From contig CP015606.1 in assembly GCA_002284915.1 (NCBI GenBank), positions 744,001 through 808,000 of the forward strand: DNA of 64,000 nt, given 5' to 3'. Positions within the stretch are counted from its first letter, which is position 1. Each line of letters opens with the position of its first letter. Source of the stretch: Actinobacteria bacterium IMCC26077 (lineage in GTDB: Bacteria > Actinomycetota > Actinomycetes > Nanopelagicales > Nanopelagicaceae). Shown here piece after piece: positions 8,931 through 40,397 of the stretch. The notes under the pieces were generated by a model, which had not been told where the DNA came from, searched no databases, and saw only the letters and a list, made by a program, of their open reading frames with translations. A program made the translations under genes and the position numbers.

Positions 8931-9004
8931 TGGAGCGGGTGACCGGGATCGAACCGGCACAGCTAGCTTGGAAGGCTAGAACTCTACCATTGAGCTACAC
9001 CCGC
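8931..9004 (-). tRNA. tRNA-Gly (anticodon TCC)
   Basis: Read on the minus strand, this gives a full cloverleaf: acceptor stem GCGGGTG pairs with CACCCGC, anticodon stem CTAGC/GCTAG has loop CTTCCAA (anticodon TCC, reading GGA), and the T-loop is TTCGATC. The 3' CCA is encoded (TGG at 8931-8933). Length is 74 nt including CCA. Confidence 0.97.
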
Positions 9005-9060: not shown

Positions 9061-9133
9061 CGGGGCGTAGCGTAGTGGCTAGCGCGCCTGGTTTGGGACC
9101 AGGAGACCGGAGGTTCGAATCCTCTCGCCCCGA
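9061..9133 (+). tRNA. tRNA-Pro (anticodon TGG)
   Basis: A cloverleaf is formed with acceptor CGGGGCG/CGCCCCG, D-arm GCGT/GCGC, anticodon arm CCTGG/CCAGG with loop TTTGGGA (anticodon TGG), and T-arm GGAGG/CCTCT. The discriminator base is A and CCA is not encoded, unlike the tRNA-Gly 57 bp away on the other strand. Confidence 0.96.
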
Positions 9134-36751: not shown

Positions 36752-38452
36752 ATGACGAAGAACACAGGTGATAACCCGAATAACCCGATGAAGCCTCGCT
36801 CTGCCACGGTCACCGATGGCATTGAGCGCGCACCAGCGCGTGGCATGTTACGCGCGGTGGGAATGGGTGATGAGGATTGGGTCAAGCCGCAAATTGGCAT
36901 CGCCTCTTCGTGGAATGAGATCACCCCGTGCAATCTCTCGCTTGATCGTCTAGCAAAAGCTTCCAAAGAAGGAGTGCATCAAGCAGGAGGATTCCCACTG
37001 CAATTCGGAACGATTTCAGTCTCTGATGGAATCTCTATGGGGCATGAAGGAATGCACTTCTCACTCGTATCACGTGAGGTAATTGCAGATTCTGTCGAAA
37101 CTGTGATGGAAGCTGAACGACTAGATGGCATGGTGATGTTCGCAGGTTGCGACAAATCACTTCCGGGAATGATGATGGCAGCGGCACGCCTTGATGTGGC
37201 AGCAGTCTTCGTCTATGCAGGTTCTACTCTGCCAGGAAATGTCGATGGCAAAGATGTCACCATCATCGATGCCTTTGAAGCTGTTGGTGCATGTGCGCGC
37301 GGTTTGATCACCTCTGATCAAGTAGATCGCATCGAACGTGCAATCTGTCCGGGCGAAGGCGCATGCGGTGGCATGTATACCGCTAACACCATGGCATCAA
37401 TCGGTGAGGCAATCGGATTATCGTTGCCAGGATCGGCAGCGCCACCGGCAGTAGACCGCAGGCGCGATGATTACGCGAAGAAATCCGGAATGGCTGTTGT
37501 TGAATTGATTCGACAAGGCATCACCACTCGCGACATTCTCACTAAGAAGGCGTTCGAGAATGCGATTACCATCTTGATGGCTTTAGGTGGCTCAACCAAT
37601 GCGGTGCTTCACTTGATGGCTCTAGCACATGAAGCAGATGTCGATCTCGAGCTAGAGGATTTCCACCGAATCGGCTCAAAGGTTCCACTCCTTGGCGACC
37701 TCAAACCCTTTGGTCGTTATGTGATGAGCGATGTCGATAAAGTTGGCGGCATTCCAGTTGTACTTCGCGCACTTCTTGATGCGAACTTACTCCACGGCGA
37801 TACCTTGACCGTTACCGGTAAGACGATGGCTGAAAACTTGGCCCACATCTCCCCACCAGATCCCGATGGTGAAATCTTGCGCGCGACCAAGAATCCGATG
37901 GACACCACAGGTGGCATCACCATCTTGCACGGCTCGCTCGCCCCTGAAGGTGCGGTCACTAAAACTGCCGGAATTGGTATAGAAACATTCGAAGGTCCAG
38001 CTCGAGTTTTTGAACGCGAACGTGAAGCGATGGATGCGCTCGAAAATGGCACCATCCAAGCTGGCGATGTTCTCGTCATTCGCTACGAAGGTCCTAAAGG
38101 TGGGCCAGGTATGCGGGAGATGTTGATGATCACAGGCGCGATTAAGGGCGCTGGGCTCGGCAAGAGCACGATGCTCCTTACCGATGGACGCTTCTCCGGT
38201 GGCTCCACCGGACTATGCGTTGGACATATCGCGCCGGAAGCGGTCGATGGTGGCCCGATTGCATTCGTTCGCGATGGCGACATCATCCGGATCAATACCA
38301 AAACCCGTGAGCTAGACCTACTCGTCTCTGCGGCCGAACTTGCCGAGCGGAAGAAGGGATGGGCGCCGCTGACCCATCGCTACCGCAGAGGAGTCTTGGC
38401 CAAATACTCCAAACTGGTGGGTTCGGCCTCCAAAGGTGCAGTCTGCGACTAA
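36752..38452 (+). CDS. ilvD: Dihydroxy-acid dehydratase
   Basis: IlvD makes the keto acids that precede valine and isoleucine. The 566-residue protein has the Fe-S cluster cysteines in TPCNLSL (about residue 54), GCDKSLPGM (about 130) and [11 protein letters not shown] (about 204), and C-terminal GRFSGGSTG. It is transcribed separately from the ilvB operon; a small CCCC/GGGG hairpin near 38470 is the only terminator-like sign after it. Confidence 0.97.
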
Positions 38453-38493
38453 CGCCACAGCCTCGCTCTCCCCTCGTGGGGGTCAAGTAGGGG

Positions 38494-38523
38494 TTGACGG
38501 TTCTCGCCTTTTGGCGGGAGAAT
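38494..38523 (+). promoter_or_regulatory. Promoter of the ilvB leader
   Basis: TTGACG (38494-38499) and GAGAAT (38518-38523) are 18 bp apart. GAGAAT ends 6 nt before the leader-peptide ATG, so the leader transcript probably begins at that ATG. This is the only leaderless promoter in the window with a strong -35. Confidence 0.65.
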
Positions 38524-38529
38524 AGGGCC

Positions 38530-38574
38530 ATGGCAACCGCCGTAATTATTGTGGTTAGGCAGCGCGCGATCTAG
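38530..38574 (+). CDS. ilv operon leader peptide
   Basis: A 14-codon open frame encodes [14 protein letters not shown]. Residues 5-9 are Val-Ile-Ile-Val-Val (codons GTA ATT ATT GTG GTT), the end products of the operon that follows, and another Ile codon precedes the stop. It is too short for ordinary gene finding. Position directly behind a promoter and before two hairpins is the arrangement of a ribosome-mediated attenuator, as known upstream of ilvBN in other bacteria, including corynebacteria. The peptide itself probably has no function beyond sensing Val/Ile-tRNA charging. Confidence 0.75.
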
Positions 38575-38594
38575 CGTCATTACAGATCGTGCGC
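38562..38594 (+). promoter_or_regulatory. Leader hairpin 1 of the ilvB attenuator
   Basis: 38562-38572 pairs with 38584-38594 over 11 bp (one G-U pair), with an 11-nt loop. The 5' arm covers the end of the leader peptide, including its stop codon, so a translating or stalled ribosome would decide whether it forms. Confidence 0.65.
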
Positions 38595-38595
38595 C

Positions 38596-38623
38596 ATCCC
38601 TCAGTGGAATCACTGAGGGATTT
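38596..38623 (+). terminator. Leader hairpin 2, putative attenuator terminator of ilvB
   Basis: ATCCCTCAGT (38596-38605) pairs perfectly with ACTGAGGGAT (38612-38621), with a 6-nt loop, 36 nt before the ilvB start. Only TT plus CGC follows, so the T-run is poor. It may be a weak terminator or may act on translation. Two SD-like TAGTAGGG copies follow at 38629 and 38639. Confidence 0.55.
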
Positions 38624-38657
38624 CGCATTAGTAGGGACTAGTAGGGGAGAAGTGAAG

Positions 38658-40396
38658 ATGGCTGAGGAGATGACTGGCGCGCAGAGCTTGATCCGTTCTT
38701 TGGAGAACGCTGGCGTCGATGTCATGTTCGGAATCCCTGGCGGGGCGATCCTGCCTGCATACGACCCGATCTACGACAGCAAGATTCGCCACATCCTTGT
38801 TCGCCATGAACAGGGTGCAGGCCATGCTGCAACCGGTTACGCGCAAGCAACTGGTCGCGTGGGCACGTGTATTGCCACTTCTGGTCCAGGTGCAACGAAC
38901 CTCGTCACGCCAATTGCCGACGCACAGATGGATTCAGTTCCGATGGTTGCGATCACAGGTCAAGTTCCTTCGAGCGCAATCGGTACTGATGCATTTCAAG
39001 AAGCGGATATCCGCGGCATCACGATGCCCATTACTAAACATAATTATTTAGTAACTCGTGCAGTCGATATTCCACGTGCAATCGCAGAGGCGTATCACAT
39101 TGCAGCAAGTGGTCGACCGGGCACAGTTCTTGTTGATGTTGCTAAAGATGCGTTGCAGGAGAAGGTTAATTACGAATGGCCGAAGAATATCGATCTACCC
39201 GGCTATCGAGATCATTCACAGCCAGTTCCACAATCAATTCGAGATGCAGCAGCGCTCATCGCACAATCGGTGCGACCAGTCTTGTATGTTGGTGGCGGAG
39301 TTATAAAAGCAAATGCTCACAAGGAGCTTCGTGCGCTCGCCGAATTAGTTGGCGCACCAGTTGTGACAACTCTTATGGCGCGCGGTGCCTTCCCGGATAG
39401 CCATCAACTACACGTTGGAATGCCAGGAATGCATGGCAGCGTTGCCGCGGTTACCTCGTTGCAAAAAGCTGATTTGCTCATCACTCTTGGCGCGCGTTTT
39501 GATGATCGAGTTACTGGAAAGCTTTCAACATTCGCCCCTGGCGCAAAAGTTATTCATGCAGATATCGATCCCGCTGAAATCGGAAAGAATCGCCATGCAG
39601 ATGTTCCAGTAATCGGTGATGTTCGATTGACGATGGCGCAATTACTTCCTGCAGTAAAGGCAGAATTCGCAAAAAGCCAGCCCGATCTAACGCCATGGTG
39701 GAAGCAGGTTGAGGGATGGCGCACCACCTATCCCGTTGGCTATGACGTGCCCTCAGACGGTTCGCTCTCACCGCAATATGTCATCGAGCGACTTGGCAAA
39801 ATTTCCGATCCCGACACGATCTACACCGCAGGTGTAGGTCAGCATCAAATGTGGGCATCGCAATTTATCAATTATGAGAAGCCACGCACATGGCTCAACT
39901 CAGGCGGCCTTGGCACGATGGGCTATGCAGTTCCTGCAGCGATGGGTGCAAAAGTTGGCGCTCCTGATACCACCGTTTGGGCTATTGATGGCGATGGGTG
40001 TTTCCAGATGACCAATCAAGAGCTCGTTACTTGTGCCATCAACAACATCCCCATCAAAGTTGCATTGATCAACAACGAGAGCCTTGGAATGGTTCGCCAA
40101 TGGCAGACCCTTTTCTACAACCAACGGTATTCAAATACCGACTTGCACTCAAAGCGTGTTCCAGATTTTGCAAAGCTTGCCGATGCCATGGGTTGCATCG
40201 GACTTCGCTGCGAGCGACCAGAAGATGTCGATAAGACAATCGAAGCTGCGATGGCAATTACTGATCAGCCAGTCGTTGTTGACTTTAATGTCTTCCGCGA
40301 TGCGATGGTCTGGCCGATGGTTGCTGCTGGCACATCAAATGACGACATCATGATTGCGCGTGAATTAGCGCCTGACTGGGATTCACAGGAGCTCTA

Positions 40397-40397
<1 letters not shown>
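38658..40397 (+). CDS. ilvB: Acetolactate synthase large subunit
   Basis: This TPP enzyme makes acetolactate or acetohydroxybutyrate, the committed step of Val/Leu/Ile synthesis. The 579-residue product has the catalytic Glu in [14 protein letters not shown] (about residue 53), FAD-domain sequence [11 protein letters not shown], and the TPP motif beginning GDGCFQMT and ending NN. ATG 38658 is preceded by GGGGAG; the frame is open back to 38589 across the leader hairpin, which is not coding. It overlaps ilvN by one base. Confidence 0.97.

Follow-up and report, generated by a model that had tools for sequence, protein, structure and literature searches.

In the window (the whole stretch of 64,000 nucleotides analyzed, from Actinobacteria bacterium IMCC26077), the leader preceding ilvB is very probably a ribosome-mediated transcription attenuator of the ilvBNC operon that responds to branched-chain amino acids. 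It is a member of the known actinobacterial ilvB leader-peptide attenuators, represented in Corynebacterium, Mycobacterium, and Streptomyces. Ribosome-mediated attenuation had been proposed in the first-pass annotation of this DNA, and the proposal is well supported by the conserved peptide, promoter, and hairpins P1 and P2, together with published experiments on homologous leaders. The anatomy, conservation, and geometry of the leader are visible directly in the genomes compared. As in other attenuators of this class, a short frame with a run of Ile/Val/Leu codons precedes ilvB, a hairpin at the frame end lies next to a terminator, and the frame lacks a ribosome binding site and, judged by the promoter position, opens the transcript or begins right beside its start. 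The elements of the locus are the following:

38494..38523, plus strand: promoter, with the -35 sequence TTGACG at 38494-38499, an 18-nt spacer, and the -10 sequence GAGAAT at 38518-38523; supported by the placement of TTGAC in relatives.
38530..38574, plus strand: leader peptide frame of 14 residues, predicted to be leaderless, with the transcript start predicted at or next to its A; supported by conservation and by IlvL of S. lividans.
38542..38556, plus strand: control codons GTA ATT ATT GTG GTT (Val Ile Ile Val Val), a branched-chain run kept in relatives.
38562..38594, plus strand: hairpin P1, the presumed antiterminator, with arms 38562-38572 and 38584-38594; supported by folding, covariation, and geometry.
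38596..38621, plus strand: hairpin P2, the terminator hairpin, of 11 bp; supported by folding, covariation, and the five to seven U residues directly 3' of it in most relatives.
38622..38629, plus strand: weakened U-tract UUCGCAUU 3' of P2, from the sequence and comparison with relatives.
38644..38649, plus strand: ribosome binding site GGGGAG of ilvB, from the sequence.
38658..40397, plus strand: ilvB, encoding the acetohydroxyacid synthase large subunit, followed by the ilvN, ilvC, serA, leuB, and ilvE-like frames.

Upstream of the leader and on the same strand lies ilvD, ending at 38452; the names ilvD, ilvN, ilvC, serA, leuB, and ilvE-like are those we presume from the translations and general knowledge. 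The end of ilvD is only about 40 bases 5' of the leader promoter (interval 38452-38530), so transcripts reading through from ilvD would also meet P2; on such a transcript the leader frame would be 5' extended and no longer leaderless. The search of the window against Rfam returned two tRNAs and no other family, ilvB-OMG included, at the gathering score, and the permissive search of the leader gave matches at chance level only. Those sole Rfam matches are divergent tRNA genes at 8934-9004 (minus strand) and 9061-9133 (plus strand). In the literature search no paper linking Nanopelagicales or acI bacteria with leader peptides was found.

The leader frame reads ATG GCA ACC GCC GTA ATT ATT GTG GTT AGG CAG CGC GCG ATC TAG (38530-38574). 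It is exactly the 14-codon frame described in the first-pass annotation, its run of five Val/Ile codons occupying 38542-38556. Its conservation was followed in 130 ilvB upstream regions, taken from whole genomes and 80 named contigs; the close relatives that bear a name are Candidatus Nanopelagicaceae or Nanopelagicales and similar freshwater actinobacterial MAGs. Three or more Ile/Val/Leu codons in a row occur in a short frame in 116 of them, and in 106 of the 130 TTGAC is additionally found 35-37 nt 5' of the frame start, so that the check for a conserved Val/Ile peptide before ilvB in relatives turned out positive. The combination of frame and TTGAC at that spacing occurred in none of 650 dinucleotide shuffles and in 0.4% of random 400-base segments of the window. 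In this first count a start codon was accepted if any start fitted the promoter spacing; therefore, in a second count the start was chosen blind to the promoter, and TTGAC was still placed at -37 to -35 in 76 of 107 regions (50 of 70 by distinct peptide), with no other single offset exceeding 8. These counts are not independent, because near-identical loci are included, many of them from Streptomyces, and some genomes were sampled twice. Within the genus, synonymous and non-synonymous codon changes were too few to be compared. A conservation of the frame, the promoter, and their spacing that extends over the class and lies well beyond chance leaves hardly any room for the reading of P1 and P2 as a plain terminator of ilvD transcripts with an incidental small frame, even if ilvD ends on the same strand at 38452 and hairpins between genes are common.

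The promoter, noted earlier as TTGACG and GAGAAT separated by 18 bp and placed 6 nt before the frame, is indeed there: TTGAC lies at -36 and GAGAAT at -12 to -7 of the ATG, with 6 nt between the latter and the start codon at 38530. This arrangement is conserved class-wide, and most leader start codons of the relatives are preceded by xANNNT at about -12 to -7. With the spacing between promoter and start codon constant throughout the class, transcription most likely initiates on the start codon of the leader frame. Locus L047, from a Streptomyces relative, encodes MRTRILVLGKRVG, which is identical to IlvL of S. lividans, for which RNA sequencing shows leaderless transcription and behind which a terminator is reported (PMC8079986); in C. 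glutamicum the transcript of the ilvB leader starts 1 nt from the leader start codon (PMC11857589). The leaderless start suggested by the first reading is thus supported by the conserved promoter position and by both of these species; what does not hold is its description as unusual, as this is the arrangement of the whole class. A 21-nt exact copy of GAGAATAGGGCCATGGCAACC (38518-38538), located elsewhere in the genome of the window (G000, C1:1163134-1163154, L141), is the start of hisI; as a second leader it was rejected, as it has its own ribosome binding site and no leader frame, and the copy is probably due to chance.

Several loci depart from the common plan. In L011, L015, L017, L055, and L057, all of one genus (g6), P1 and P2 precede ilvB and TTGAC lies upstream, yet a frame with three Ile/Val/Leu codons in a row was not detected; the leader there may be degenerate or coded in a different way. 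Locus L003 (3240-3420, minus strand, in genome G001 of the same genus as the window) is devoid of the leader promoter, the peptide frame, and the 5' arm of P1: the end of ilvD joins the 3' arm of P1 and P2 directly, and the ilvD frame continues into P2. Either the sensor was lost by deletion in nature or the sequence is misassembled, G001 being a metagenome-assembled genome 85% complete.

The two hairpins follow one another closely. In P1, 38562-38572 pairs with 38584-38594 to give 11 bp including one G-U pair, and its 5' arm consists of the end of the leader frame and the first base of the stop codon, as had been stated before for an 11-bp hairpin. The second hairpin is perfect as then described, its length being 11 bp and not 10 (38596-38606 with 38611-38621, loop GAAU). 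The 131-nt leader folds at -52 kcal/mol against -35.5 kcal/mol for its shuffles (z of -5.0; none of 200 shuffles reached it), the folding check thereby showing a leader far more stable than its shuffled versions. In an alignment of 25 distinct leaders the P1 and P2 helices are paired in 88–89% of cells, in comparison with 25–51% when the partners are slid. Two-sided changes of GC to UA or AU are found in P1 of L009, L060, and L038, within the coding part, and P2 shows a two-sided change of CG to UA in the genus of the window. The shuffle control is clearly exceeded in paired cells and covariation score, the two measures that, according to the tool's own warning, are inflated by kinship of the sequences, and less clearly in the numbers and types of pairs. 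A possible extension of P2, UGCG/CGCA (38590-38593 with 38624-38627), was rejected for lack of conservation: in relatives whose tail is UUUUUUCAUU or UUUCUCAUU this pairing is impossible.

A covariance model of P1 and P2, built mostly on sequences of the window's family, reaches 78.5 bits in the window; among 101 genomes from that family it detects the element in 95. Outside the family, matches before ilvB were obtained in Kribbella, Nocardioides, Blastococcus, Jiangella, and others, mostly with E < 0.001; the match in Streptomyces is weak (L047, E of 0.003). The genome of the window, a single contig of 1.55 Mb, contains one strong match only, and the weaker additional ones look like ordinary terminators.

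P2 is followed in the window by UUCGCAUU, in which four T residues occur within 8 nt if the last U of the stem is counted. The earlier remark that no T-run follows the second stem is thus correct as regards a full tract and overlooks a weakened one. In most relatives five to seven U residues stand immediately 3' of P2, and the tract is interrupted in the genus of the window and in several other genera (AUUUCGCAUU; UUUCGCAUU); hence, P2 is read as an intrinsic terminator, with a weak tail in the window's genus. A strict terminator pattern run over 297 genomes of the class gave two matches, the pattern being too narrow. The weakened tract UUCGCAUU could also be accounted for by Rho-dependent termination gated by leader translation, with P2 acting in this genus only as a barrier at the 3' end; for actinobacterial leaders that lack a terminator, a part for Rho has been proposed (PMC1262725). 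This is nevertheless unlikely, as the same interrupted tail stands behind a strong P2 in several related genera, and the P2 stem carries in the genus a compensated change of C-G to U-A, as expected if the hairpin itself acts.

The U residues behind P2 in most relatives also bear on a purely translational scheme, in which the leader would mask or unmask the ilvB ribosome binding site with no stop of transcription. It was raised in the first-pass annotation for the sequence TAGTAGGG, which occurs twice in the window (38629-38636 and 38639-38646), and the predicted fold contains a weak hairpin spanning 38622-38648; moreover, translation attenuation by leaderless frames is known for mycobacterial cysteine genes, in the work cited in PMC13236596. 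Apart from the terminator-like U residues, the masking idea fails on the lack of conservation of the duplication: neither it nor the weak hairpin is kept in the closest relatives, L002, L004, and L050 of the same genus, and relatives differ widely in how far ilvB lies from P2. We regard masking as very improbable, and the earlier proposal is not supported. The duplication is accordingly given no function.

The manner in which the ribosome could act on P2 is less obvious. Attenuators of the E. coli trp and ilv type possess a leader ribosome binding site and a long 2:3 alternative pairing; they resemble the leader of the window in their control codons and in the choice between hairpins by ribosome position, and differ from it in that binding site and in the long 2:3 pairing. 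No such extended antiterminator, sequestering the 5' arm of the terminator, was found here. With a simulated ribosome placed on the stop codon or on any one of the control codons, no equilibrium antiterminator appeared in the window sequence, the probability of P2 being at least 0.98 at every position; in most relatives it is at least 0.8, with a few lower single values, the rows of L039, L041, and L049 concerning a wrongly picked hairpin. Folds of truncated transcripts hinted that P1 reaches slightly into the P2 arm, but capture of the 5' arm of P2 by upstream RNA amounts to 1.17 nt compared with 1.27 nt for shuffled arms in 77 distinct leaders, and against this control a general P1/P2 overlap of 2–5 nt does not hold up. 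With P2 always formed and capture not above that of shuffles, no sequence-encoded antiterminator is visible; the earlier failure to find a convincing alternative pairing is confirmed and, in these energy models, extends to the whole family.

What is conserved instead is the geometry. In 76 leaders, with the transcript cut two bases into P2, the end of P1 lies within 2 nt of P2 in 74, a figure to be read against the 67% of shuffles that also do so, as the cut favors P1 ends near P2. In 53 of the 76, P1 starts 7 or 8 nt past the base that opens the last branched-chain codon, and the two features together are found in 68% of leaders and 9% of shuffles; the mean energy of P1 is -19.7 kcal/mol in leaders versus -10.1 kcal/mol in shuffles. 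The P1 geometry is the same whether the stop codon lies within P1 or 5' of it, and even the 17 leaders of the latter type mostly retain the spacing between the last control codon and P1. These are L030, L031, L033, L064, L065, L067, L068, L069, L071, L073, L078, L108, L110, L118, L120, L126, and L128. In both types the 5' arm of P1 lies under a ribosome that has reached the end of the frame, and stalling on the earlier control codons leaves the arm free. The RAI with which the peptide ends in other leaders is conserved, seemingly as a by-product of P1. P1 is probably an antiterminator through adjacency or a very short overlap, and not through long alternative pairing.

Within the same attenuator, P1 might serve mainly as a pause hairpin, holding the polymerase until the leaderless ribosome loads, with the choice made by very short pairings at the base of P2. 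The authors of the C. glutamicum study ascribe a pausing role to the first hairpin, and the antiterminator and terminator overlap there by 3 nt only (PMC11857589); in the window, stalling on the first control codons allows AGG:CCU (38557-38559 with 38599-38601) to form atop P1 in a transcript ending within P2. This variant is possible, but a less probable one, for capture of the P2 arm does not exceed that of shuffled arms in the 77 leaders, and the +7/+8 geometry fits gating of P1 itself by the ribosome. As not even a 3-nt overlap is general, steric hindrance by adjacency may be considered. Somewhat more tentatively, it might be extended to the Actinomycetes as a whole: an antiterminator P1 sharing no sequence with the terminator, whose base, abutting P2, hinders the closing of P2 in the RNA exit channel, with P1 gated by the ribosome from a fixed 7–8 nt past the first base of the last control codon.

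In the preferred reading the ribosome would gate P1; where the transcript starts, that the frame is translated, that P2 terminates, and in which direction P1 acts are inferred by analogy with C. glutamicum and M. tuberculosis. RNA polymerase would begin on the A of the leader ATG or right beside it, and the ribosome would initiate on the leader without a Shine-Dalgarno sequence. With ample charged tRNA-Val and tRNA-Ile it would reach the UAG and cover the 5' arm of P1, so that P1 would not form, P2 would fold, and transcription would stop. When charged tRNA is scarce, the ribosome would stall on GTA ATT ATT GTG GTT and leave P1 largely free; P1 formed against the base of P2 would then let the polymerase continue into ilvB, weakening P2 by a very short overlap or by steric adjacency at the RNA exit channel. 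Besides the lack of a visible sequence-encoded antiterminator, two features count against this best explanation: the interrupted U-tract, and the position of P1, about 4–6 nt of whose 5' arm would lie under a ribosome halted at the last control codon if the footprint extends about 12 nt beyond the A site. Additionally, mutations of candidate ilvB control codons in S. coelicolor had no regulatory effect, according to the citation in PMC1262725, which counts against any simple scheme.

Among the characterized systems, the ilvBNC attenuator (ilvB-II motif) of Corynebacterium (Morbach 2000, as cited; Narunsky 2023, PMC10272879; 2025, PMC11857589) has, like the window, a branched-chain-rich frame at the transcript start without a ribosome binding site, a hairpin at the frame end, and a terminator hairpin followed by ilvB. 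The peptides differ; in Corynebacterium the antiterminator and terminator share a 3-nt boundary and a U-run follows, whereas in the window P1 and P2 are adjacent without strict overlap and the U-tract is weakened. In C. glutamicum the Val codons are needed, the terminator is proven, and a three-hairpin model has been put forward (PMC11857589). The IlvL attenuator of ilvBHC in S. lividans (PMC8079986) shares the leaderless peptide, branched-chain codons, hairpins, and ilvB, and differs in a full U6 tract and in a longer P1 region, with about 40–56 nt from the stop codon to P2 in contrast to 21 nt in the window. For ilvB1 of M. tuberculosis a terminated transcript of about 120 nt and a translated frame were reported, and induction is lost when LVVI is replaced by AAAA; it is proposed that the antiterminator cannot form while a ribosome occupies the stop codon, and that a ribosome stalled at LVVI allows it (PMC13236596). 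By description, not by sequence, that leader resembles the one in the window, with a branched-chain frame, an antiterminator from the frame end, and a terminator; its translated LVVI frame, induced on branched-chain inhibition, belongs, unlike the leader of the window, to a mapped and tested system. The candidate leaders surveyed by Seliverstov in 2005 (PMC1262725) likewise have Val/Ile/Leu runs and frames overlapping hairpins before ilvB; that survey covered named cultured genera, the window's family not being among them.

For specialists the interest lies in the comparative geometry and not in the finding of an attenuator as such. The 77 distinct leaders provide a comparative test absent from single-species studies, and the comparison shows a fixed P1-P2 adjacency and a constant spacing to the control codons, an encoded overlap being absent; an unclear actinobacterial mechanism thereby becomes testable by simple spacer insertions. 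A studied control element of actinobacteria is now extended to a mostly uncultured lineage with small genomes, and the attenuator is kept in about 94% of the genomes of this family, although such genomes are thought to shed regulation.
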